The notes under the pieces are model-generated. The model had not been told where the DNA came from. It worked only from the letters and a program-made list of their open reading frames with translations, and searched no databases. From IMG/VR virus record IMGVR_UViG_3300020131_000006, positions 1 through 52,496 of that record: a stretch of DNA of 52,496 nt; one strand, 5' to 3'. This document shows positions 2,920 through 52,329 of the stretch, one piece after another. Origin of the DNA: a virus. The position numbers and the translations under genes were made by a program. Positions within the stretch are counted from its first letter, which is position 1, and each line of letters begins with the position of its first letter.

Positions 2920-3157
2920 AATGGCAGAGTATTATTTGGAGCAAAGTCTATTTGGAGAAGATTGGGAATGGGCACACAACCCAATACCAAGACGAAGAAC
3001 TACATGGACAACCAGAGAAGGTAAGATACTAGAAATTTCCAAAATGGAAACTTCCCATATTAAGAACTGCATTAATTTACTTCGTAAGAAACAAATTCCA
3101 GTACCCTCTGAGTTTTACCGTGTTCTAAAAGAAAGGGGGGAAGGGAATGCTCGCTAA
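2912..3157 (+). CDS. small gene inserted between the two polymerase halves
   Basis: 81 residues. The middle resembles a widespread small phage/bacterial motif of the form W-T-x-x-[DE]-G-x-x-[IL]-x-I-x-x-M-x-x-x-H-[LI]-x-N, here WTTREGKILEISKMETSHIKN. GAGG (2901-2904) is a good ribosome binding site. It overlaps the end of the upstream polymerase half by 8 bases and the start of the downstream half by 11, so it exactly fills the gap. Its function is unknown and nothing in it suggests a polymerase domain. It is read in a third frame relative to both halves. Confidence 0.72.
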   Translation: MGEMAEYYLEQSLFGEDWEWAHNPIPRRRTTWTTREGKILEISKMETSHIKNCINLLRKKQIPVPSEFYRVLKERGEGNAR

Positions 3158-3899
3158 CTTCGACGCAGCACAACTAGAATGGAGAGCTTTTGCTCACCTT
3201 TCTGGAGATAAAACAGCTATCCGTGAGATTAACGAAGGTTTGGACTTCCACTCTGATAATCAGGAAAAGTTTAAACTTCCTTCTCGTCTGGTAGCTAAAG
3301 TCTTTCTATTTAGAAACATCTACTGTCCTTGGTGGTTGGCTGAACGGACCGCATATGCTTATTCGGTTGACAATGACTTTAAGGATGTGGGTGGTGTTAA
3401 GTTTTGGAGAGCTGCTATTGATGCTTTCTATGAAAAATACACAGGAGGTTATGAGTACCACAAGAAGCTCAAGAATGAGGCTACAACTACAGGGCAAATC
3501 ATTAGTGAAACAGGCCGCATCCATCCTATTCAGCCCGTCCTCAGACGTGGGCAAATGGAATGGCCTGATAGTGACATAGCCAACTATCCTGTTCAGGGCT
3601 TCAGCGCCGACCTAATGGCCTTGGCGCGGGTGTCTGCGTGGAATAGACTGCGGGAATATCGAGAGAGAGGCGAAGTATTATTCGTTAATTCAGTACATGA
3701 CTCGATAGTTCTTGACATAAATACAGATGAATGGTATAATATTTGTATAACTATGAAAAAGACGTTCAGAGATATTCCTGCGAACTTCGAGAAAATATAC
3801 GGGAAGAAACTTTTGGTTCCTATGGATTCAGATGCAAAGGTAGGAGTCAATTGGTTGTGGCAACATAAAATACAAATACAAGAAAAGGATTTACATTAA
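3147..3899 (+). CDS. DNA polymerase family A, C-terminal part (palm and fingers)
   Basis: 250 residues beginning at motif A, NFDAAQLEWR (residues 4-13), with the metal-binding aspartate. The motif B helix RLVAKVFLFRNIY (about 47-59) follows, and motif C is SVHDSIVLD, with the second catalytic aspartate. A strong ribosome binding site (AAGGGGGGAAGGG) precedes ATG 3147. Where family members normally continue IYG, this protein reads IYCPWWLAERTAYAYS, so the glycine is replaced and about seven residues are added. Joined to the upstream half, the sequence runs VFITRFSYG then MLANFDAAQ with no missing family residues. Confidence 0.88.
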   Translation: MLANFDAAQLEWRAFAHLSGDKTAIREINEGLDFHSDNQEKFKLPSRLVAKVFLFRNIYCPWWLAERTAYAYSVDNDFKDVGGVKFWRAAIDAFYEKYTGGYEYHKKLKNEATTTGQIISETGRIHPIQPVLRRGQMEWPDSDIANYPVQGFSADLMALARVSAWNRLREYRERGEVLFVNSVHDSIVLDINTDEWYNICITMKKTFRDIPANFEKIYGKKLLVPMDSDAKVGVNWLWQHKIQIQEKDLH

Positions 3900-23435: not shown

Positions 23436-24374
23436 TTATCCAATTACCCCGCTGAGAGAGCCTATGTTAGTTAAATCTCCGAAAGCATTTGTTTGCTCAT
23501 CATGAAACTCTAAAATATTTAGAGGGGATTTGTATGAGAAAAGACCGAGGAAAGTAGTCCCTTTCATAAGTTTAATTCTACTAAATGTTTCGGTGTTTAG
23601 GTATCCGGCTGTATATGTATCATTTATTTGATTAGAGTAAATATCACTTAAAACAATGAAGCCACCTTCTCTATCACCCGGTTGCCCAGTTCCAAATCCA
23701 AAGTCAGCATTAGGAAAGATAAAACCACTTTGATCTACTCCTCTAGCTACTATGGTGGCATTAGCTCCATCTACCCCATACTCAGAGTCTGGGTAGAATG
23801 CGTAAAAGACTCTGCTGCCCGGGCTTCCGGATTGGACAGGAACAGGAACAGAGTACCCACTGATAGTGCCTGTGAAGAATACTTCTGGCTCCTCTGGTAG
23901 AATCTCTGTACTGAAAACAACATTTGCCATTTCTCCGTTAACGGCTTGTCTATAAAATTCTAAACTTTCAAAATTATCTAAGGTGATAACAGAGGGATTA
24001 GCTAAAATTAAGTCACCATTTAAATAACTGTTATTCTGTAGTGGGGTTACTGACAGTTTAAAGTGAATGTTATAGTTAGATACAGGAACTTCAACAGTGT
24101 ACCCAGTGGAAATTCCGATACCAAGTGAAACTATTCCATTTCCTATAGAAAGAGTAAAGTTTTGAGTTCTAGAAGTAATATAAAGAAACTGCTCCTCATG
24201 CTCTGGAACAAACCCAACTATATCGAATTCAAAAATAAGTTCTTCTGAGGTCACAGCCTCAACTACTCCAGACACTTCAGCCGTACCCATAGTCTCTCCA
24301 GCCATATCAGCGTAAAGCTGGTAGGTGAATTGGTCAGAGTCTATTACATTAACAATATCGTATTTTTTAGCCAT
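23436..24374 (-). CDS. tail-region protein with shared KKYDIV module, copy C
   Basis: 312 residues. Residues 1-40 are the shared module: KKYDIVNVIDSD, FTYQLY (16-21), then GTAEVSGVVE. The remaining ~270 residues are beta-rich with a jelly-roll-like flavour (VFFTGTISGYSVPVPVQSG, FGFGTGQPGDREG) and no family I recognise. It lies inside the split tail gene, between the two parts of the gp10-like protein. The shared start suggests docking to a common virion site with a variable outer domain. Role is inference. Confidence 0.62.
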   Translation of the reverse strand: MAKKYDIVNVIDSDQFTYQLYADMAGETMGTAEVSGVVEAVTSEELIFEFDIVGFVPEHEEQFLYITSRTQNFTLSIGNGIVSLGIGISTGYTVEVPVSNYNIHFKLSVTPLQNNSYLNGDLILANPSVITLDNFESLEFYRQAVNGEMANVVFSTEILPEEPEVFFTGTISGYSVPVPVQSGSPGSRVFYAFYPDSEYGVDGANATIVARGVDQSGFIFPNADFGFGTGQPGDREGGFIVLSDIYSNQINDTYTAGYLNTETFSRIKLMKGTTFLGLFSYKSPLNILEFHDEQTNAFGDLTNIGSLSGVIG

Positions 24375-25445: not shown

Positions 25446-26438
25446 TTAAGTATCCCTCTTTTTATACACAGATATTAAAGTCTCTTCTCCAGAAGGAAGA
25501 CCGAGAACATAAATGCTTCCATTGATGTACCCCATCACTCCAGAAGTTATCAGTGGCATTTCTTCAGGGGTCAGGATATGTTCTATAGGAGCTGAAGCAC
25601 CATCTGGAATTTCCAGTAAAACATTGGTATTGTTAGTTCTTCCAAAAATGTAATTAGTTGTGCCTATTTTAGTTTTGAATTGTCCAAAGACAGAACCACC
25701 AGAGCTAGTCCAATAGAGACTCCAGTTAGTCCCATCAGAAGTCTTCCAAATGTCACCACCATTTGCTCCGAAAACTCTCATAACATATAAGTTATTAGTA
25801 TCCTCGAACCAAATACCGGAATTACCTACTGTCGGCAGCCCTACAGTTTCGTGCCAATCCCCACTCTTAGTTGTCCAGTCCATTCTCCACATGTCATTAG
25901 TAAATGAATCATTTGGAAGTGTGTACATGTAATTATTAAAAACTACATGTTCTCTAGAATCAAACCAGTCAGGAGCATTTCCAGATACACGACTCCAAGT
26001 AGTATAGGGAGTACTAGTTTGACACCACTCGAAGTCACCAATATCTAAACTTGTAAAAGCATATAGGACAGACTCGTACTCATATGGAAATATCCCATAA
26101 TAAAGATAAGCAGTAGCGGGATAAGAGCCTGCTTCCCCCGCATTAATAGGAGTACCATTATCTAAATCAGACAAAGACCAAAGAGTAACAGTTCCATTGG
26201 GGTCTGTATCTATAAAGGTACCAATATATGCCGTATCTTCTGTATAATAATAGATTCCTATAAGATTTTCAGCCCCCAAATCAAACTGGTTAACTAGGTC
26301 AAAGATATTGGGGTCTTCGGCTTCTACAGTTCCACTAACCTCTACTGTACCTGTAGTAGTACCAGCCATATCCACATACAACTGATACGTAAACTGGTTA
26401 GGTTCTAGGAAGTTAACAATGTCATACTTTTTTACCAT
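25446..26438 (-). CDS. tail-region protein with shared KKYDIV module, copy B
   Basis: 330 residues. Residues 1-41 are the shared module (KKYDIVNFLEPNQ, FTYQLY 16-21, GTTTGTVEVSGTVE). The rest is aromatic-rich with repeated W, Y and NN turns, for example VVFNNYMYTLPNDSF and WFEDTNNLYVM, suggesting a beta-propeller or kelch-like fold that could bind surfaces. It lies between the gp4-like and the gp10-like N-terminal genes and overlaps the gp4-like stop by a few bases. A host-recognition or decoration role is plausible. Confidence 0.62.
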   Translation of the reverse strand: MVKKYDIVNFLEPNQFTYQLYVDMAGTTTGTVEVSGTVEAEDPNIFDLVNQFDLGAENLIGIYYYTEDTAYIGTFIDTDPNGTVTLWSLSDLDNGTPINAGEAGSYPATAYLYYGIFPYEYESVLYAFTSLDIGDFEWCQTSTPYTTWSRVSGNAPDWFDSREHVVFNNYMYTLPNDSFTNDMWRMDWTTKSGDWHETVGLPTVGNSGIWFEDTNNLYVMRVFGANGGDIWKTSDGTNWSLYWTSSGGSVFGQFKTKIGTTNYIFGRTNNTNVLLEIPDGASAPIEHILTPEEMPLITSGVMGYINGSIYVLGLPSGEETLISVYKKRDT

Positions 26439-28243: not shown

Positions 28244-28786
28244 CTAAGACGTATATTGAAGATTTGTAACAAATACTTGTTCAGGATTAGATTCAAAAGC
28301 ATCCAAGGGTGATACTGGCACAGTAACTGTGTTATTAGAGCTTGTTATTGAACAAACGACAACACCATCTTGTGATAGAGTGTAGGTATTTCCTATCTTT
28401 TCAACTAAGATATTTCTAGTCCCATATGCCGAAACACCAGTATCTATAATGAAAGAATCCTCATCTTCAATAATACCATTAATAAATCTGCGAAGTCTTA
28501 ATTGGCTATTTACCGTTGCTCCTCTAGTAGTCTGAAAGTAGGCTTCTAAGTAATTAGAAGAAGCATAACCATCATAATACTCCCTAATCCAAGCAGCTCT
28601 AACAGAACCTCCTGCGGTAACATTTGAGGTAATTGTATATGAGAAATTTCTAAACTCCAATGGAGGGGAATCAACTACTCCAGTGACTTCGGATGTTCCA
28701 GTGGTAGTTCCTGACATATCGGTATAGAGTTGGTACGTAAAAGCATCAGAATCTATCACACTGACTATGTCATATTTCTTAGCCAC
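28244..28786 (-). CDS. tail-region protein with shared KKYDIV module, copy A
   Basis: 180 residues. Residues 1-40 carry the module (KKYDIVSVIDSD, FTYQLY 16-21, GTTTGTSEVTGVVD). The remaining ~140 residues resemble a concanavalin/laminin-G-like sandwich (RNFSYTITSNVTAGGSVRAA, then TYTLSQDGVVVCSITSS). Its start overlaps the HNH stop by one base. It is the smallest of the three module proteins. Function unknown; carbohydrate binding is a guess from the fold pattern. Confidence 0.62.
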   Translation of the reverse strand: MAKKYDIVSVIDSDAFTYQLYTDMSGTTTGTSEVTGVVDSPPLEFRNFSYTITSNVTAGGSVRAAWIREYYDGYASSNYLEAYFQTTRGATVNSQLRLRRFINGIIEDEDSFIIDTGVSAYGTRNILVEKIGNTYTLSQDGVVVCSITSSNNTVTVPVSPLDAFESNPEQVFVTNLQYTS

Positions 28787-37057: not shown

Positions 37058-37143
37058 TGGTGGAAGCTGATGGAGTCGAACCACCTAGGAACTAGCCTGC
37101 TTGTGGGTTACAGCCACACCCCTTACCGTTCGGGCAAGCTTCC
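37058..37143 (-). tRNA. tRNA-Tyr(GUA)
   Basis: Read on the - strand. Acceptor GGAAGCT pairs perfectly with AGCTTCC. The anticodon loop CTGTAAC gives GUA, and a long variable arm is present, as expected for class II tRNA-Tyr. The T-loop is TTCGACT, and a 3' CCA is encoded. 86 bases. Confidence 0.92.
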
Positions 37144-37148
37144 TTAAT

Positions 37149-37222
37149 TGGCGATGTGTAAGGGAATTGAACCCTTGCGACCTCTTAGACAGAGAGGGAT
37201 GCTACCTCTACATCAACACATC
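37149..37222 (-). tRNA. tRNA-Asp(GUC)
   Basis: Acceptor GATGTGT pairs perfectly with ACACATC. The loop CTGTCTA gives anticodon GUC. The T-loop is TTCAATT, the discriminator base is G as usual for Asp, and CCA is encoded. 74 bases, 5 bases from tRNA-Tyr. Confidence 0.92.
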
Positions 37223-37226
37223 AGAA

Positions 37227-37303
37227 TGGTCCCCATCGGTAGATTCGAACTACCACTGTACGGTTTCTAAGACCGCTATCTCTGCCAATTGGATTACATG
37301 GGG
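37227..37303 (-). tRNA. tRNA with anticodon UAG (Leu-type), short variable loop
   Basis: Acceptor CCCCATG pairs with GATGGGG for six of seven bases, with a G-G mismatch at 7:66. The stem GCGGT/ACCGT holds loop CTTAGAA, so the anticodon is UAG and would read CUA (Leu). The variable loop is only ACAGT (5 bases), whereas bacterial tRNA-Leu has a long variable arm. T-loop TTCGAAT; CCA encoded. Identity by charging is therefore uncertain. Confidence 0.8.
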
Positions 37304-37305
37304 AA

Positions 37306-37382
37306 TGGTCTAGAAGGTAGGACTTGAACCTACGACCCCGAGCTTCCAAAGCTCTCACTCTACCAAACTGAGCTACTCCTAG
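37306..37382 (-). tRNA. tRNA-Pro(UGG)
   Basis: Acceptor CTAGGAG pairs with CTTCTAG (one G-U). The loop TTTGGAA gives UGG. The D-arm (GCTC with GAGT) and T-loop TTCAAGT are normal, and CCA is encoded. It is the first gene of the leftward transcript, just behind the promoter. Confidence 0.92.
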
Positions 37383-44029: not shown

Positions 44030-45469
44030 ATGTGTGGCCTACTCGCATTCCACACAGCGGATAAGATAGGGTTTCAATCAGCGGATAGGGATAGCTTTCG
44101 ACAGATGCTGATTCTTACCTCATTACGTGGGAACCATTCAACAGGTGTGGCTGGTATCTCAAAGAATGTAGATAAGAATGATGTAAGTATTGTGAAAACT
44201 ACAGGCAGTCCCTATGCTTTGTTTGCATATACCAAGACAGATGAGTTCCTGACTCGCATGTTTAATGAGTTCGGTACGGTCATCGGGCATTGCCGCTATG
44301 CCACGCGCGGTGAGATTACAGCAGTAAACGCGCATCCTTTTGAAGAGGAACATATCACACTGGCACATAACGGAGTGATTAATAACTATCACCAACTGCG
44401 GGATTACAAGCGACATTCTGACATTACTGTGGACTCTCACTTAATTGCTCGTATGTTTGCTGAGGAACATCCACTTGACATTCTGCCAAAGGTAGAAGGT
44501 GCTTATGTCTTTATGTGGATTAATTCTGAAGAGGGTAGCTTTAACATTGCTCGTAACTTAGAACGTCCATTGTTCGTATCTCAGAAGGAGCATCAAGCTA
44601 CACTTGCCTTTGCATCGGAAGCACAAACCCTGTCATGGAACTCTTCCCGTAATAATATGAAATGTTCTGAGCCGACAGAGATTAAACCTTTCCATATCTA
44701 TACATACCCACGTGGTTCCATTGAGCCAGTGATTACGGAGTACAAGCCAGAACCAAAAAAAGTTATTATCTACCCGAATCAAGGTGGGCATGAAAGACAA
44801 CACCATAAAAATAATGATAACTTCTCTAAGGTAACACCCATAGATAAAAAGGTTCAGAAGAAGGGAAGTCCTCACGAAGCAGACGAGACTGACATTCTTA
44901 CCTTGAACACGGCATTGGATGTGACTCTGGAAGTAAATCAAGTTGTCAATATTTGGGTAGATGATTATGAGGACATGGATGGTTACACCGTCATCCGTTG
45001 TTATAGTGATGAATACCCGAATGTGGAGTTCTATATCAATACAACTCCAGAAAAAGCAATAGAAATTCTAGATGCTGATTCTCTCCGCGGTAATGTGAAT
45101 GGTATCCACCTAGTACCATCTGAGAAAACAGATAAGGGACTTCGTTGGAGAGCATATGTATCTAACTTTGTGTTTGTCTATGAGCCTAGTGAGCAAAAGA
45201 CAGAGTTTGGGCCAGTAGAGGAACCTAAGAAAACCAAAGTAACTTACAAGTACTCTCGTCGTAAGATGGGAGATATGCTTAAGATAGTTGAGTATCCTTC
45301 TGGAGAACTTATTAAAGTATCCAGACGTACATTCTTGACTTGGTGTGAGAAAGGTTGCTCTTGGTGTCAATCAGAGATAACCCAAGCTGAAGCTGATAAT
45401 TATCAGAAGCTCTTTCTTATGGATGATGAGGTTATTTGTCGTAGTTGTTCTGATACTGTTCGTAATTAA
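44030..45469 (+). CDS. class II glutamine amidotransferase
   Basis: 479 residues. The N-terminal ~230 residues are an Ntn-type glutaminase: catalytic Cys 2 (MCGLLAF), LRGNHSTG (32-39), GHCRYATRGE (86-95), AHPF (101-104) and LAHNGVINN (111-119). It would release ammonia from glutamine for transfer to a partner. The middle (about 240-380) is of unknown type and the C-terminus has four cysteines (CEKGCSWC and CRSC) that may bind zinc. No synthetase domain is fused. With the amidoligases and ATP-grasp enzyme downstream it probably forms one pathway. Confidence 0.85.
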   Translation: MCGLLAFHTADKIGFQSADRDSFRQMLILTSLRGNHSTGVAGISKNVDKNDVSIVKTTGSPYALFAYTKTDEFLTRMFNEFGTVIGHCRYATRGEITAVNAHPFEEEHITLAHNGVINNYHQLRDYKRHSDITVDSHLIARMFAEEHPLDILPKVEGAYVFMWINSEEGSFNIARNLERPLFVSQKEHQATLAFASEAQTLSWNSSRNNMKCSEPTEIKPFHIYTYPRGSIEPVITEYKPEPKKVIIYPNQGGHERQHHKNNDNFSKVTPIDKKVQKKGSPHEADETDILTLNTALDVTLEVNQVVNIWVDDYEDMDGYTVIRCYSDEYPNVEFYINTTPEKAIEILDADSLRGNVNGIHLVPSEKTDKGLRWRAYVSNFVFVYEPSEQKTEFGPVEEPKKTKVTYKYSRRKMGDMLKIVEYPSGELIKVSRRTFLTWCEKGCSWCQSEITQAEADNYQKLFLMDDEVICRSCSDTVRN

Positions 45470-45480
45470 TGGAGGACTAA

Positions 45481-45714
45481 ATGCAAAGAGGGGGTAATTC
45501 AGTATGTGATGATTGTATTAATGATATGGGAACACACTGTCGCCTACATCATGCACATCATCCAAAAATATTGGGATGCTATGACCATAAGGCAGCTCTT
45601 CCAGCTCCTGTAATCCAGCATCCACCTATTAACCAACAAAGCAAGAAACAGATTGAGTTTATTGTTACTGACCCAGAGACTAAGAAGGTAATTAAATATG
45701 CCAAACTTCCATGA
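45481..45714 (+). CDS. small Cys/His-rich protein
   Basis: 77 residues with CDDC (9-12), HCRLHHAHH and CYDH in the first 40, likely to hold one or two zinc ions, then a proline-rich linker and IEFIVTDPETKKVIKYAKL. Starts 11 bases after the amidotransferase. Possibly a protein-binding partner in the pathway. No family recognised. Confidence 0.6.
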   Translation: MQRGGNSVCDDCINDMGTHCRLHHAHHPKILGCYDHKAALPAPVIQHPPINQQSKKQIEFIVTDPETKKVIKYAKLP

Positions 45715-46537
45715 GACACCTCCAACTATTCCAGTCTTTCAAAACCGGGATAGAGTTATTTATCAAGGTCTATCCTCTACTGAGGAAATAGTGTACTCCA
45801 CTACTCATATTTGTTTTGGGTTGTTTGGCTCACACCATTTCAGAAAGGAGTTCTTAGAAGTTCCAGACCTTACTTATTTTCAAACATGGTTTGGTGACTC
45901 TTTATCTCTTGTTCTCAAAGAAGAGGGATGGGCTGAGAAATTCATAGATGCCTTGAAAACAACAGGACTTCTTGAAAATGTAGACCTAAAAGTACTTGAC
46001 AAAAAAGATATTACTAAGAAGGAATCTGAAGCTTTTTCGTATGTTGCTTCTGCTGATAAAGCATTACGCATGGTTCGATTGAGGTTCGACCTTAATAAAG
46101 TATCTTCTCCGGAAATGTTTCTGATTATCTGTACCATTAGAACTCTTGCTATAAATCCGGGGGTAATTTATGACAGCCTTCTGTTGTGGGAGAAACATCC
46201 AGATGTATCTTATTGGAATTGTCTTATAGCAGCCCATGGTATAAATATGGGGACATATCGCTCACACCATCCGCTCCACGGCCTATGCTCAAGTAAAGTT
46301 GGGTATGTTTTAAGCACAGTTGAGGAAATTCTAGAAGTACTAAAGCGTGAGCGAAAAGTACTAGCAATCAAAGATATGCAATATACCCGTGTTATATGGG
46401 ATACTGTAATTCATGCGGATTTTAGGTATGGCCCTATACCGGCTTACTCTGAAGAACTATTTAATTCTTATATGGGGGAAAAACAATTCAAAGAATATGT
46501 AAAAGCTCATCCAAAAACAAACAGACCAGCATGGTAA
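45698..46537 (+). CDS. unknown protein in the amidoligase cluster
   Basis: 279 residues, mixed alpha/beta with histidine pairs (SHHFRKE, SHHPLHGLC) and no recognised motif. It overlaps the preceding gene by 17 bases and is followed, after AAGGAG, by the class I amidotransferase-like gene. Co-transcription with pathway enzymes suggests a role as substrate-binding or modifying protein, but nothing in the sequence proves it. Confidence 0.58.
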   Translation: MPNFHETPPTIPVFQNRDRVIYQGLSSTEEIVYSTTHICFGLFGSHHFRKEFLEVPDLTYFQTWFGDSLSLVLKEEGWAEKFIDALKTTGLLENVDLKVLDKKDITKKESEAFSYVASADKALRMVRLRFDLNKVSSPEMFLIICTIRTLAINPGVIYDSLLLWEKHPDVSYWNCLIAAHGINMGTYRSHHPLHGLCSSKVGYVLSTVEEILEVLKRERKVLAIKDMQYTRVIWDTVIHADFRYGPIPAYSEELFNSYMGEKQFKEYVKAHPKTNRPAW

Positions 46538-46552
46538 TTTAAGGAGAAACAA

Positions 46553-47206
46553 ATGGCACGTTTAGTAGCAATCGGTAATTTCTTTGGGGCACATGCTCCG
46601 TTTCAAGACTTATTCAAAGAGGTAGTTGTCATGTCGTTGGGTAAGTATGCAACCTTTGAATTGAAAGATGATGATGTTGTATTGTTTGGCGGTGGTGCTG
46701 ACATTAGCCCATCAATCTATAACCAAGTTCCAAGCAGACATACAGGCGCACGTGCCGAGCTGTCTGATAGGGATGAAGTAGAAGTGTATATGTTTAATGC
46801 AGCTAAGAAGAAGAACCTTCCGATGCTTGGTATCTGTCGTGGTGCACAATTAGTATGTGCTTTATCCGGTGGTTCCTTGATTCAGCATGTGTCTAATCAT
46901 GCAGGGCCGAATCATAAGATTGCTACCAATGAGGGTACGGTCATTGATGTGTGTTCTGTGCATCATCAAATGATGAACCCATTCTCAACTAAGCATGAGC
47001 TTATTGCGTGGGCGCATCGACGGCTATCCCCACATTACATTGTTGCAAATGAACTTGAAGTTGAAATGAAGGTAGAACCTGAAGTAGTTTATTTTCCTGA
47101 GACGAAAGCTTTGGGTATCCAATACCATCCTGAGTTTATGCACCCTGACGACCAAGGCGTTATCTACGCTCGTGAGTTGGTTGCTAAATATCTTCTGAAG
47201 GAGTAA
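46553..47206 (+). CDS. class I glutamine amidotransferase-like (gamma-glutamyl hydrolase type)
   Basis: 217 residues, the size of a single GATase-1 or peptidase C26 domain. Nucleophile elbow LGICRGAQ (92-99, Cys 95) and IQYHPEF (189-195, His 192, Glu 194) form the triad, with FGGGADISPS (45-54) typical of gamma-glutamyl-GABA hydrolase-like members. It may cleave a gamma-glutamyl bond made by the ligases or provide ammonia. AAGGAGAAACAA precedes the start. Confidence 0.85.
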   Translation: MARLVAIGNFFGAHAPFQDLFKEVVVMSLGKYATFELKDDDVVLFGGGADISPSIYNQVPSRHTGARAELSDRDEVEVYMFNAAKKKNLPMLGICRGAQLVCALSGGSLIQHVSNHAGPNHKIATNEGTVIDVCSVHHQMMNPFSTKHELIAWAHRRLSPHYIVANELEVEMKVEPEVVYFPETKALGIQYHPEFMHPDDQGVIYARELVAKYLLKE

Positions 47207-47210
47207 GACC

Positions 47211-47657
47211 ATGTTTTTTGATGATATGACTACAGCACGCTATAAGAAACTTATAGCTAATCTGTCTAAAGAAATTAAAAAAGAGGTTAAGGTATATTTT
47301 CCTCTAATGGATGGTGATGGTTATGATGAGAATGATTCGGCACTAGTTCAGATTTCTGTTGAGGGACAAGCACGAAAATTTAGTGCTTATTTTGACGGGT
47401 ATCCAAGTAATTGCGGCATAGCTATTCTTAATAATATGGCACTGACTTCTGATAAAGCTCAGAACAAAGCTTTTCTAAAATTCCTTCTTGACTTGGCTGA
47501 GTCTGCTAATTATACGCAAGTTCATTATACAGCAACAGACCATCAAATTGGGATTCGTGATTTACTCGACGAGTGTGGCTTTGTAGAGATAGAGGCTCTC
47601 CGTTTTGAAAATAAACGAACTGGCAGTCTGCTGTTCTATTACTCAATGGAGATATAG
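47211..47657 (+). CDS. GNAT-like protein, first of two
   Basis: 148 residues. Shared with the 47695 gene: PSNCGIAILNNMA, a helix, YTQVHYTA, LLDECGFVEIEAL and FENKRTGS. The order resembles the C-terminal half of GNAT acetyltransferases (beta4, helix, beta5, Leu-Leu-x-x-x-GF). The pyrophosphate-binding loop is poorly conserved. In amidoligase neighbourhoods, GNAT-fold enzymes can transfer amino acids or acyl groups to a peptide. Fold call is moderate. Confidence 0.58.
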   Translation: MFFDDMTTARYKKLIANLSKEIKKEVKVYFPLMDGDGYDENDSALVQISVEGQARKFSAYFDGYPSNCGIAILNNMALTSDKAQNKAFLKFLLDLAESANYTQVHYTATDHQIGIRDLLDECGFVEIEALRFENKRTGSLLFYYSMEI

Positions 47658-47673
47658 GTTACAACCTTGTAAC
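47658..47673. repeat. 16-bp palindromic repeat, copy 11
   Basis: GTTACAACCTTGTAAC touches the stop of the first GNAT-like gene and lies 21 bases before the second. It is the only copy with CC in the centre, i.e. the reverse orientation of the GG copies. Confidence 0.88.
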
Positions 47674-47694
47674 AATCTAATATAGGAGAGTGTT

Positions 47695-48144
47695 ATGTGG
47701 CTGAGGATATTTAAAGAGCATATCAAGAAGGATATCGAAAAAGAATTACCTGATAAGTTCTCGGTGGAGTATGGTGTTTTATCAGCGGATTACAAAAGTA
47801 TACATCGTCTTCGGTTTACGACGCAAGAAGACACATATACTAGGACACTGTTTTCAGTTAGGTTAACACAGTTTCCAGAAAATTGCGGTATTGTTTTGGT
47901 AGCTGGTTTAATCTCTGACACAGATGAACTCAGAAGCATTGGTCTAAGGGCCATTAAGTCACAGTGTTATGATGCTGGATATACTCAGTTATTATACACT
48001 GTGAATGAGAAGCAAGAGGCATTAAAAGAGGCTCTTTTAGAGTTTGGTTTTGTTGAGCATCCATCTCTAAGTTTTCTGAATCATCGCTCAGGTAAACAAA
48101 TTACGTATCTTTCTTATGACTTAAGGAGCAAGAACAATGTATAA
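47695..48144 (+). CDS. GNAT-like protein, second of two
   Basis: 149 residues, paralogue of the 47211 gene: PENCGIVLVAGLI, YTQLLYTV, LLEFGFVEHPSL and LNHRSGK align in order. Probably arose by duplication, with palindrome copy 11 between. It starts with AGGAGAGTGTT upstream and overlaps the amidoligase gene by 8 bases. Catalytic residues of classical GNATs are not clear. Confidence 0.58.
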   Translation: MWLRIFKEHIKKDIEKELPDKFSVEYGVLSADYKSIHRLRFTTQEDTYTRTLFSVRLTQFPENCGIVLVAGLISDTDELRSIGLRAIKSQCYDAGYTQLLYTVNEKQEALKEALLEFGFVEHPSLSFLNHRSGKQITYLSYDLRSKNNV

Positions 48145-48910
48145 TAATCTGCAACGCGGGGCTGACCCTGAACTCTTCTTACGGGATAAGCATAACTTTC
48201 CCGTAACAGCGATTGGTCTGATTGGGGGTAGTAAGAATGTGCCAAGGCAAATCGGTAATGGGTTTGCTTTGCAAGAGGATAATGTAGCTGTGGAGTTCAA
48301 CATTCCACCAGCTTCCTCTAAGGAACAGTTTGTTTCGTCCATTCACTTTGTACTTGACTTCTTACGTCAAGAACTAGCACCCAAGGAATTACACCTTGAC
48401 ATTTCTCCAACTATGGAATTTACAGAGGAGCAACTTGACCATCCACAGGCTCGTCAGTTTGGATGTGAGCCGGACTTCAATGCGTGGACTCTGGACATTA
48501 ACCCACGACCCAAAGCACCAGCAAACTTCCGTAGTAGTGGTGGTCACTTACATCTAGGTTGGGATGATCCAACTGAGGAAGAACAGGTTCGATTGATTAA
48601 GGCCCATGACTTATTCTGTGGTGTGCCTTCATTGATATACGACCCTGACGTTAAGCGTCGTGAAGTATATGGCAAGGCAGGGGCATGTCGTTTCAAAGAT
48701 TATGGTGTGGAGTATCGCACTCTATCGAACTTCTGGCTGAAGAGTGAAGAGTTGACAGCTTGGCTTTTCGAACAGTCGGAGAAAGCAGTTAAGTTTGTGA
48801 AAGACCAGAATAAATTATCTGAAGAAGATTGTGCTAAGATAGTTCATTGTATCAATGCATCTGATCATCAGCTTCTTGCAGAGTTGAATGAGAAGTTTGC
48901 AATTCTATAG
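48137..48910 (+). CDS. amidoligase, phiEco32-like COOH.NH2 ligase type 2
   Basis: 257 residues. Glutamine-synthetase-like landmarks: RGADPELFL (7-15), QEDNVAVEFNIPP (46-58), FRSSGGHLHLGW (131-142) and YGKAGACRFKDYGVEYRT (178-195). The repeated acidic and histidine residues would hold metal-ATP for joining a carboxylate to an amine. This family is known from phage phiEco32 and its relatives; its substrate has not been shown to my knowledge. AAGGAGCAAGAACA precedes the start. Confidence 0.85.
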   Translation: MYNNLQRGADPELFLRDKHNFPVTAIGLIGGSKNVPRQIGNGFALQEDNVAVEFNIPPASSKEQFVSSIHFVLDFLRQELAPKELHLDISPTMEFTEEQLDHPQARQFGCEPDFNAWTLDINPRPKAPANFRSSGGHLHLGWDDPTEEEQVRLIKAHDLFCGVPSLIYDPDVKRREVYGKAGACRFKDYGVEYRTLSNFWLKSEELTAWLFEQSEKAVKFVKDQNKLSEEDCAKIVHCINASDHQLLAELNEKFAIL

Positions 48911-48919
48911 GATTCTAAT

Positions 48920-49639
48920 ATGGATAATTTCAATGCAAAGGAATTACAGCGGCGGTATGGGGGAACGTATGTAAGTATCTTCCGCAAAGATACTAAGGAG
49001 ATTGTCGGAGCCTATGTAGATAGGATACATGCGGATGAGAACTTAACAGCAATACCCTCCGCTGTTCTCTATGTACTTCCCAAAGAGAAATCTGAGGAAT
49101 ATGTAATTAAAGGGTCTAAGGGGGACATGGGAAAAGCTGTTCTCCCACTTAGTCACTTTACCATTCTACCAATGCCACCGGCACGTGTCTTTGATGTTAA
49201 TGGGGTTACTATAGTATTCCGACGTGATCCTGCTAGACAGTGGCAGCGAGGACTTACTGGACAGAACGGAACGTTCCATAATCCACTGTACACATTCCTA
49301 ACTTCGGTAAAGAACTTCAAAGTTAAACGTGAACAGTTCAGATTATCTTTACAAGAGATTAATAATCTTTTGATTGGGGAGAGTGCTGGTAGTTTTAACA
49401 AAGCTCTGAATGATATTGAGGACTACAAGCTGTTGTCTAGAACTATCAACGATAAGTACTTTATCTCGTTGTATCCAGACAAGCAGCATGAGTATCTGCT
49501 ATTCCGAATGGAAGAGCCTCTGGCTTATTACAGTAGGGTTACAGATACCTTTACTGTTGTGAATCCTTTATTCGAGCAAGAGGTAAGTGATTTTATTCGT
49601 CGCAATAACTTGCGTTCATTTGTGAAGAGGGCCAATTAA
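48920..49639 (+). CDS. unknown protein between the two amidoligases
   Basis: 239 residues, basic alpha/beta protein (FRRDPARQWQRGLTGQNG, about 101-118; ending RNNLRSFVKRAN). It has no motif I recognise. Position between two amidoligase genes with no gap implies it takes part in the same pathway, perhaps as carrier or acceptor recognition protein. Inference only. Confidence 0.6.
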   Translation: MDNFNAKELQRRYGGTYVSIFRKDTKEIVGAYVDRIHADENLTAIPSAVLYVLPKEKSEEYVIKGSKGDMGKAVLPLSHFTILPMPPARVFDVNGVTIVFRRDPARQWQRGLTGQNGTFHNPLYTFLTSVKNFKVKREQFRLSLQEINNLLIGESAGSFNKALNDIEDYKLLSRTINDKYFISLYPDKQHEYLLFRMEEPLAYYSRVTDTFTVVNPLFEQEVSDFIRRNNLRSFVKRAN

Positions 49640-51133
49640 ATGAGAGTCAGAGATATGTTTCATGCGCCGGACTTCCTAGATGAAACAGAAATCTTATTGA
49701 AGATAGCACAAGATAAGAAGTATGTTTCTCCTGTTAAGATGGCAGTTGATGATGTTTTTGTGGGCATTGAGGTAGAGGTTGAACGAGTGTTCCGAACCAA
49801 TGGTATTCTCCCTCTGCCTTCGTCCGGTAACTTCCTATGGAAGAATGTAGAGGATGGAAGCCTACGTAACAATGGTCGAGAGTTTGTTTCTATTCCCATT
49901 CGTGGGGATACAATTCCATTCGCTCTTGAGGTATTGAATCGTACTCTCAATAAAGAGAAACTCTGCATTGGTCATGAGTTCTCTGAGAGAACCTCTGTGC
50001 ATGTTCATGTTGATGTTCGGGCAATGACTACTGAGCAGCTACAGAGCTTTATCCTGACGTACATTCTGTTAGAACCCCTGTTCTATAACTACACAGGAGA
50101 CACACGGTATAACAATATCTTCTGTGTACCTTTGAACTATTCAAATCTCAACAAGGTACTTAAGAGACTCTTTGATGATTTGCAAAAGGGAATTGCTCAT
50201 AAAGCTATGGGCGGTATTAATACATGGCCTAAGTACACAGGGTTTAACCTTAAACCAGTTACAACGTATGGTACTGTTGAGTTTCGGCATATGGGTGGAA
50301 CTTGTGATGTTGCTGAGTTGTCCAACTGGATCAATTTAATCTTACGGTTGCATCGGTACGCTGAGGGACAATCGTTTGAGAAGTTGAAGAGCCGCATCCT
50401 TAATATGAATACAACGTCAGAGTATATGCAAATTGTCTCTGAGATATTCGGCAATGACTTGTACTTGATTCGTGAGGATAAGTTGGTGCAGCATATGGAA
50501 GATATGGTTGTCTTTATTAAGGATATTTTCTCAAACGTATCTGTTAGCACACTCTTTTCCGCGGAACTAAAATCAAATTTCCCTGAAGAGTTATTAGATT
50601 GTAAGTTTGTCAAACATGCCACAGATGCAGGATGGTGGGTTAAGGTTAGGCTGCCATTTACTCGTGATGAATATCATACTTTCTTGGCAACAAGTGGACA
50701 TAATACGGAATATATTTCTTGGTTGTTTGAGTTCCACAAACGACACGCTATCAAGGTTCGGGATGACGACGAATTGCTTCTTCTATCTCACGAGCATATG
50801 AGATATTACTTGGACGAAGTACAGAAAAAGGAAAAGAAGGAAGTGGTGAAGAAGCGTGCCACACCACGGGAGCCTAGAGTGGAAGCTGTTGGTGGATGGG
50901 GGGGTGTTAACCCCAATCGAGATGATGCTATAGCGGCAATGGCCGCCGCCGCCCGTCGTGGTCTTGACCCTGATGTTGCAGCAGCAGCTCTTCGTGTGGA
51001 TGCGGTACCACCACTAAGGCCATTCGGCGAACAGCCGCAAGCAGAACCAGCCCCACGTCGTAGAGGACAGGTAGCAGAAATAGTTCAAGATGAAAATGGA
51101 AATGCAAATCTTATTTGGAGGGACATAGAATGA
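49640..51133 (+). CDS. amidoligase (Amidoligase_2-like)
   Basis: 497 residues. Landmarks: VGIEVEVERV (41-50), EDGSLRNNGREFVSIP (71-86), TSVHVHVDVRAM (118-129) and VEFRHMGGT (213-221). These acidic and histidine clusters match the GS-like amidoligase fold, different in detail from the 48137 gene. The C-terminal ~80 residues (from about 416) are a disordered Ala/Arg/Pro-rich tail, which could tether a partner or be a substrate itself. Starts directly after the previous stop. Confidence 0.82.
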   Translation: MRVRDMFHAPDFLDETEILLKIAQDKKYVSPVKMAVDDVFVGIEVEVERVFRTNGILPLPSSGNFLWKNVEDGSLRNNGREFVSIPIRGDTIPFALEVLNRTLNKEKLCIGHEFSERTSVHVHVDVRAMTTEQLQSFILTYILLEPLFYNYTGDTRYNNIFCVPLNYSNLNKVLKRLFDDLQKGIAHKAMGGINTWPKYTGFNLKPVTTYGTVEFRHMGGTCDVAELSNWINLILRLHRYAEGQSFEKLKSRILNMNTTSEYMQIVSEIFGNDLYLIREDKLVQHMEDMVVFIKDIFSNVSVSTLFSAELKSNFPEELLDCKFVKHATDAGWWVKVRLPFTRDEYHTFLATSGHNTEYISWLFEFHKRHAIKVRDDDELLLLSHEHMRYYLDEVQKKEKKEVVKKRATPREPRVEAVGGWGGVNPNRDDAIAAMAAAARRGLDPDVAAAALRVDAVPPLRPFGEQPQAEPAPRRRGQVAEIVQDENGNANLIWRDIE

Positions 51134-51918
51134 ACTTAGTAATATATCCATACAACTTAGGTAGTGCTTCTGCTCGTGCTTTAAAAGAAGCACTTACGGA
51201 TAGGTTACAAGCACGGGTGTTGCGGGTACGGTCATCTGCTCGTTTGCGGCAGCGTCCTCGTATCGTGTTGAATCTTGGGAATGCTAGACCACCTGAGTTC
51301 TTCCATACTCGTATGATTAATCAACCAGCCGCTGTTAATGTGGCAGGTAACAAGCTTCTGTCTTTCCAAGCTTTGAGGGATGCCAACATTCCAATTCCTG
51401 AGTTCACTACTGATATTGCTCAGGCAAGCAATTGGTTACAGGAAGGTATTTCTGTACTTTCCAGAGAAGCACTTCGTGGGCATAGTGGGGAAGGTATTGT
51501 GATAAATAATCCCAACCCAACTAATGCTGTGGCATTGGCTCCACTGTATGTCAAGTACAAAAAGAAGAAACATGAGTTCCGTGTCCATGTGTTTAATGGT
51601 CAGGTGATTGACTTGCAGCAGAAGAAGAAGATACGTGACTTCGAGCATACTGATGAACAGAAGAAAGTTCGTAGTCATCATAATGGTTGGGTATTCTGTC
51701 GAGAGGACTTAAATTTAAATGAAGAAAATCTGGTTCGAATTAAAGCTATCGCTGTATCTGCTGTTAATGTTTTGGGTTTGGATTTTGGTGCTGTTGACAT
51801 TATTTTTAATGAAAGAGAGAACGCTTTCTACGTCTTGGAAGTTAACACCGCTCCGGGCTTGGAAGGGCAGACGTTAGAATCTTATGTTGAAGCTATTGCT
51901 AATTTTGTGGGGGTATAA
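51130..51918 (+). CDS. ATP-grasp ligase
   Basis: 262 residues from ATG 51130, overlapping the amidoligase stop (ATGA). ATP-grasp signs: glycine loop SREALRGHSGEGI (111-123), KYKKKKHEFRVHVF (142-155), DFGAVDIIF (218-226) and LEVNTAPGLEG (236-246) with metal-binding Glu and Asn. Such enzymes form amide bonds through an acyl phosphate, as in D-Ala-D-Ala or RimK ligases. It is the third peptide-bond-forming enzyme in the run. Confidence 0.88.
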   Translation: MNLVIYPYNLGSASARALKEALTDRLQARVLRVRSSARLRQRPRIVLNLGNARPPEFFHTRMINQPAAVNVAGNKLLSFQALRDANIPIPEFTTDIAQASNWLQEGISVLSREALRGHSGEGIVINNPNPTNAVALAPLYVKYKKKKHEFRVHVFNGQVIDLQQKKKIRDFEHTDEQKKVRSHHNGWVFCREDLNLNEENLVRIKAIAVSAVNVLGLDFGAVDIIFNERENAFYVLEVNTAPGLEGQTLESYVEAIANFVGV

Positions 51919-51922
51919 TAAA

Positions 51923-52078
51923 ATGAGAATTAAATGTACGTGTCATCATGAGTATCAGGATAACCGTTATGGTAAGGGGGTTAGAGTAGCAACTCCTAAG
52001 AAACTTTCCCAAGGAAAACCAACAGAAGTTAAGTGCACTGTTTGTGGAACAGTTACTAAGAACTTCACAGAAAAATAA
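51923..52078 (+). CDS. small zinc-ribbon protein
   Basis: 51 residues from ATG 51923. CTCHHEYQD (6-14) and CTVCGTV (38-44) make one zinc ribbon in a basic protein. Last gene of the cluster, followed at once by palindrome copy 12. Could be an acceptor or regulator. No family recognised. Confidence 0.6.
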   Translation: MRIKCTCHHEYQDNRYGKGVRVATPKKLSQGKPTEVKCTVCGTVTKNFTEK

Positions 52079-52125: not shown

Positions 52126-52329
52126 ATGCATTGCCGTGCTTGTGATTGTGAATTAACTGATGAAGAAGCTGTTCGTAAATATGACAATTGGAAAGAGATT
52201 GAAAATCCAGAAGAGCGATATATTGATTTGTGCAACAGATGTATTGGTAAGTCAGACCTAGCGGTTTATGATAGTGACATGCTAGATACAACAAGTATAC
52301 CTGAAGAGGATTATCATGGAGAAGAGTAA
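52126..52329 (+). CDS. small zinc-binding protein
   Basis: 67 residues. CRACDCEL (3-10) and CNRCIG (36-41) form a zinc site of a type (C-R-A-C-x-x-x-L-T/S-x-x-E) common in small phage proteins. AAAGGAATTGAA precedes the ATG. Acidic C-terminus. Function unknown. Confidence 0.62.
   Translation: MHCRACDCELTDEEAVRKYDNWKEIENPEERYIDLCNRCIGKSDLAVYDSDMLDTTSIPEEDYHGEE

Follow-up and report, generated by a model that had tools for sequence, protein, structure and literature searches.

A predicted phiEco32-type phage amide-ligation module and its conserved partner families in virus record IMGVR_UViG_3300020131_000006

Introduction

What do phages make with a clustered set of amide ligases, and which genes belong to the set? 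The question is raised here by positions 44030-52078 of the IMG/VR virus record IMGVR_UViG_3300020131_000006, the whole 52,496 bases of which we call the window. Iyer et al. (2009), as cited in later papers, predicted the module, and it has been annotated in many phages; hundreds of phages, some of them therapy-relevant (Pseudomonas, Escherichia), carry it, and it has had no known product since that prediction. What is added here is the definition of its unnamed genes as conserved partner families. An earlier note, made from the sequence of the window, had proposed a peptide-ligation cluster of the phiEco32 type, a proposal that protein families, intact residues and co-occurrence support at the level of sequence. 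We read the region as a full version of this phage module for amide ligation, of the phiEco32 type.

Results

The five core enzymes

All eleven open reading frames (ORFs) of the region, named below by their first positions, are open on the + strand with the starts given in the earlier note, and they overlap or are closely spaced. The region has no near-identical match among 50,697 phage records. Pfam and PHROGs confirm the families of the enzymes that the note had named, and catalytic positions were judged in alignments that held up to 80 members of each family. The first gene, 44030 (44030-45469), encodes a class II N-terminal nucleophile (Ntn) glutamine amidotransferase (GATII) of 479 residues, with a GlmS/PurF-like N-terminal domain and a Cys-rich, zinc-ribbon-like C-terminal region. 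It matches GATase_6 (PF13522, E = 3.7e-19) and phrog_4736 (2.5e-56), and C2, R89, N114-G115 and D135 are present, all almost invariant across 80 family members. Gene 46553 (46553-47206) encodes a Peptidase C26 (C26) or class I GATase-like enzyme of the gamma-glutamyl hydrolase type (PF07722, 1.3e-21; phrog_7218, 3.9e-36), in which the Cys-His-Glu triad C95, H192 and E194 is invariant in the family, as is H137-H138-Q139. The nearest solved structures are Lin1909 and PuuD.

Two ligases with the glutamine synthetase (GS) fold follow, and they are of different types. Gene 48137 (48137-48910) is a COOH-NH2 ligase (CNL) of phiEco32 type 2 (PF14395, 2.1e-9; phrog_3815, 2.6e-79) with D10, E12, Q46, D48, E53, R132, H137, H139, D169, R174, R185, E192 and R194 intact; a profile search of solved structures with CNL gave no match. 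Gene 49640 (49640-51133) is an Amidoligase_2 (PF12224, 1.1e-8; phrog_7469, 3.5e-41) with E44, E46, E81, H121, H123, R156, E214 and R216 intact and a low-complexity C-terminal tail that is specific to the window. The earlier note had offered that tail as a candidate target of the ligases. Columns conserved at 75% or more all lie within residues 42-230, the initiator Met excepted, and from this alignment the tail, outside the conserved part of the family, is unlikely to be a general target. The last of the five, 51130 (51130-51918), is a RimK/D-Ala-D-Ala-ligase-like ATP-grasp ligase (RimK, 8e-6; phrog_2599, 1.7e-80) with phmmer matches to Ddl, RimK and LysX-type ligases. Its ATG overlaps the stop of 49640, a TTG at 51115 is an alternative start, and the conserved ATP-grasp residues are K80, E154, R156, K170, D228, E242 and N244 when counted from the 51115 start (5 less for 51130).

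Catalytic residues are thus retained in all five enzymes. Because these positions are almost invariant across the families and intact here, the cluster is neither a chance nor a decayed assembly; a decayed or chance cluster is also ruled out by the synteny of the core, which extends over about a hundred loci from diverse phages.

Distribution and gene order

Homologues of CNL were found in 316 of the 50,697 phage records and in at least 579 viral contigs. The corresponding figure for prokaryotes is 16 of 84,980 species genomes, every one a contig of a metagenome-assembled genome, and many of these contigs are short, phage-like or bear the same phage-type cluster, so at this sensitivity CNL is close to phage-exclusive. 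Iterated hidden Markov models (HMMs) were run over 103 CNL loci, of which 84 remain after collapse at 70% CNL identity. Among the 84, GATII is found in 83, ATP-grasp in 80, Amidoligase_2 in 78, C26 in 72, the family of 48920 in 51 and gamma-glutamyl cyclotransferase (GGCT; PF06094, 1e-16) in 38, and all five core enzymes occur together in 65, counts which are lowered by the truncation of many contigs. The co-occurrence in related phages that the earlier note had suggested as a check is strong for the core partners, at 72-83 of 84.

The loci fall into two orders. Type A runs C26, optionally the GNAT-fold protein, CNL, 48920 family, Amidoligase_2, GATII, ATP-grasp; in type B, which includes crAss-like phages, CNL is preceded by ATP-grasp and C26, and Amidoligase_2 by GATII. 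The window follows type A, except that its amidotransferase is shifted upstream, as it is in PA11/TC6-like phages and one further locus (L033). The module is also present in phiEco32, LUZ24-like, PA11-like and crAss-like phages, and in other phages it lies early, beside primase, helicase and polymerase.

The nearest annotated relatives of the window terminase are from Alcaligenes phage vB_Af_QDWS535 and the Manatee Spring phage MW202796. The latter is informative as a phage of the same backbone: capsid (63%), terminase (56%), portal (51%) and ribonucleotide reductase (67%) are shared with the window, along with replication genes, and ten HMMs for module and accessory proteins gave no match in 41.5 of its 43.8 kb. 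The interval bounded by the homologues of 36218 and 52126 measures about 15 kb in the window, where it includes the module, and about 4 kb in MW202796, where it has an ArdC anti-restriction gene. Since the backbone is shared and the matching interval is without the module, the module is an exchangeable accessory block in this lineage, and the ArdC gene in that interval weakly suggests an early host-interaction role.

Partner families

The earlier note had singled out 45698, 48920 and a GNAT-like pair as possible marks of a new variant. For 48920 (48920-49639) this does not hold, as it is a standard partner: its family has 63 members in 63 of the 103 loci, including phiEco32 (gp85), LUZ24-like, PA11-like and Alcaligenes phages, and it sits between CNL and Amidoligase_2 in 50 of the 51 non-redundant loci where it occurs; the remaining one is a truncated contig. 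Other members match phrog_11055 and phrog_4877, both of unknown function, and 48920 itself has no PHROG match. The model of 48920, with a predicted local distance difference test (pLDDT) score of 84, starts with a barrel that is similar to those of Sm, Tudor and SH3-like proteins, a weak match at best (Z = 5.0 over 58 residues), and ends in an alpha/beta domain; the barrel matches (VIA rows) have Z of at most 5.0 and cover residues 1-114, so that the C-terminal part is barely tested by them. Foldseek against the PDB found nothing at E < 0.001, and the significant matches in BFVD are all unannotated phage proteins. As there is no obvious catalytic set, the simplest inference is a scaffold or adaptor, and going by the model 48920 is probably a non-catalytic one for the two GS-fold ligases.

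Genes 47211 (47211-47657) and 47695 (47695-48144) are two copies of one family with about 50 proteins in 23 of the 84 loci, more than one copy being present in 8 of those 23. The pair is therefore no novelty of the window either, the family being widespread and often duplicated in these clusters. The GNAT reading has no sequence match in Pfam or PHROGs. For 47695, the AlphaFold2 model (pLDDT 86, predicted template modeling score 0.80) aligns to GNATs with Z up to 13.5 and a root-mean-square deviation of 2.3 over 121 residues; 765 chains score Z of 8 or more among the best 1000 Foldseek matches, and the best ones listed are GNATs. The GNAT-like fold claimed in the note is thereby upheld as a predicted fold. 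The usual chemistry is another matter: the loop [QR]xxGx[GA] after beta-4, which binds the pyrophosphate of coenzyme A (CoA), is absent in 47211, 47695 and 49 of 50 family members, and acetyl transfer from CoA is unlikely. One member (L007:1588-2046) keeps the loop, as RKLGLG, exactly there. Since the loop is gone from nearly all and kept in place in one, the family, as modeled, probably consists of former acetyltransferases. Two motifs form its signature: P-x-C/N-C-G, which precedes beta-4 and whose second Cys is invariant (Cys68 in 47211, Cys64 in 47695), and N-x-N-S-G-N, which lies between the final strands.

Gene 45698 (45698-46537) encodes 279 residues with a Cys-Phe-Gly motif at 39-41, and no homologue was found by tblastn, pattern scan, HMM over the fetched loci or hhalign. 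The motif, as C[FYH][GA], is present in 17 of 65 ORFs in the slot just upstream of C26/CNL, where 1.6 are expected by shuffling, and in 2 of 93 ORFs elsewhere in the same loci, which is no excess. The upstream proteins that have it include phiEco32 gp87 and gp88, tf gp17 and gp18, and cr108_1 gp29 and gp30. It was picked by eye after the sequences had been viewed, and its enrichment is the whole of the case for placing 45698 in a family. A profile of 19 such proteins misses 45698, and in leave-one-out trials it also fails on most of its own members; an earlier profile was discarded because primases bearing a CFGC zinc motif had entered it. From its motif and position, 45698 is probably a divergent member of the Cys-Phe-Gly class, in which case it too is typical of what lies upstream of the core in other phages.

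Two proteins had been put forward as zinc-binding. The small one from 51884 (51884-52078) is of a zinc-binding type, with CxC and CTxC motifs conserved in 9 of 9 homologues, and homologues lie near eight other such clusters. The 77-residue product of 45481 (45481-45714) is Cys/His-rich and possibly zinc-binding; it is an orphan with no Pfam or PHROG match and no HMM relative in the fetched loci. Beside the module, at 52126-52329, is a further small CxxC protein, with look-alikes in locus L135 (by eye) and MW202796 (blastp, 3e-7) and no Pfam family.

A GcvH- or lipoyl-domain-like gene, whose family HMM has no match in the window, directly follows the ATP-grasp gene at L002:12722-13231, L011:12810, L022:12850, L100:12086, L104:9868, L034:11345, L135:9035 and about 10 other loci. 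Its profile matches GcvH structures at E = 2.7e-7, and the lipoyl lysine is missing, with Asp there in most members. The protein is a possible carrier; an Asp acceptor was considered for it and dropped, as Asp replaces Lys in most, not all, members.

Discussion

We think it fairly probable that, early in infection, the module makes amide bonds of the gamma-glutamyl type on a target from host or phage, and edits them with the C26 enzyme. In such a scheme 44030 would free ammonia from glutamine, or serve as an Ntn-type amidase, while 48137, 49640 and 51130 would use ATP to turn carboxylates into acyl phosphates and couple these with ammonia, with amino acids or with some other amine. The product would be edited or deprotected by 46553 through hydrolysis of gamma-glutamyl amides, much as PuuD follows PuuA. 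An adaptor role for 48920 would serve both GS-fold ligases, and the GNAT-fold pair, with the CoA loop lost and a Cys invariant, might be a transferase that does not use CoA or a thioester acceptor of acyl groups. The site would be the cytoplasm early in infection, the main candidate targets being peptidoglycan precursors and proteins, and GGCT in many relatives suggests that gamma-glutamyl bonds are the currency. Several points weigh against this reading. The gamma-glutamyl logic is an analogy taken from the Puu and butirosin pathways, and the adaptor and thioester roles are predictions from modeled folds and a single invariant residue. The loci were gathered mainly through CNL, which makes co-occurrence conditional on it. 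GGCT is optional, being in 38 of 84 loci, and its HMM finds no match in the window, and the literature searched gives no demonstrated product or activity for any such module.

The target may be the cell wall. Alteration of peptidoglycan precursors, whose stem peptides have gamma-D-Glu bonds, would change the wall and could, for example, exclude superinfecting phages; according to papers that cite them, Iyer et al. (2009) proposed this for phiEco32, the idea has been repeated for other phages, and a gamma-glutamyl hydrolase with Ddl-like ATP-grasp chemistry fits stem peptides. Pfam and PHROGs, however, recognize no wall-binding or membrane domain in the module proteins, and we hold this version to be possible and somewhat doubtful. 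The RimK-like character of the ATP-grasp enzyme would also suit a module that puts amino acids or a peptide tag on a host or phage protein for early takeover or counter-defence. Proteomics of phage SU10 detected ATP-grasp and GATII, and the ArdC gene stands in the matching interval of MW202796, although that comparison involves one phage. PADLOC models had no match for nine proteins, in a library of defence and not counter-defence proteins; tagging of this kind can be entertained tentatively.

A role in host nitrogen or glutamate metabolism has been proposed for Phage-ZRK32, which is reported to be chronic and to promote the growth of a Planctomycete. Genes for GGCT, an amidoligase and an amidotransferase are reported in this phage, and its addition enhanced growth with nitrate or ammonium. 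Its unverified, partial record (OP650935, L151) has a CNL 42% identical to that of the window. The growth evidence is not linked to the genes by mutation, a metabolic role requires neither two types of GS-fold ligase nor conserved partner families, and metabolic genes usually have close cellular relatives whereas this core is nearly absent from cellular genomes, so an auxiliary metabolic gene set is improbable. We rate just as low the idea of a peptide assembly line of a kind new to phages, based on a carrier or on thioesters, in which the GNAT-fold Cys would hold the growing acyl group and, in some relatives, the GcvH-like domain without its lysine would be the carrier. Production of a hypermodified DNA base, brought to mind by the nearness of the module to replication genes in several phages, is very improbable: the enzymes are amide ligases, not nucleotide-modifying, and no base-modification family was recognized in a scan of ten early and packaging genes of the window, a minor part of the phage.

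Three more families are now tied to the core: that of 48920 and gp85, that of the GNAT-fold Cys proteins and, probably, that of the Cys-Phe-Gly proteins upstream. Together with a related phage that is without the module, they give the search for the product a set list of genes and natural points of comparison.

Other features of the window

DNA polymerase is spread over two ORFs (1729-2919 and 3147-3899), which are separate in MW202796 too. On the - strand, three structural-region proteins (23436-24374, 25446-26438 and 28244-28786) have a near-identical N-terminal segment, M(A/V)KKYDIVNVIDSDQFTYQLY..., which is perhaps a shared module for tail attachment. At 37058-37382, also on the - strand, an array of four tRNA genes (Pro, Leu, Asp, Tyr) separates the packaging genes from the early region.

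Comparison with known systems

PuuD acts after PuuA in putrescine breakdown, and the butirosin pathway uses gamma-glutamyl protection. The window has in common with PuuA/PuuD, where gamma-glutamylation is followed by gamma-glutamyl hydrolysis, the combination of a GS-fold ligase with a C26 hydrolase; it differs in having no putrescine genes and other ligase families, so the analogy is one of mechanism only. Among phages, a 7-ORF peptide-bond segment has been described in Sinorhizobium phage phiM6. The phiEco32 genes gp77-gp88 form an early cluster that has, like the window, CNL, the gp85 family, Amidoligase_2, a class II amidotransferase and ATP-grasp, along with further small genes; the window departs from it in the amidotransferase upstream of the core, the C26 enzyme, the GNAT-fold pair and the lack of GGCT. 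The PA11/TC6-like phages (Zobellviridae) share with the window an order that has C26 upstream and GATII before CNL, then CNL, 48920 family, Amidoligase_2 and ATP-grasp, although no GNAT-fold pair was detected between C26 and CNL in TC6. Alcaligenes phage vB_Af_QDWS535, whose terminase is related to that of the window at 48%, places GATII and ATP-grasp after Amidoligase_2 and adds a GcvH-like protein, but it has the same C26, two GNAT-fold copies, CNL, 48920 family and Amidoligase_2 in the same succession.

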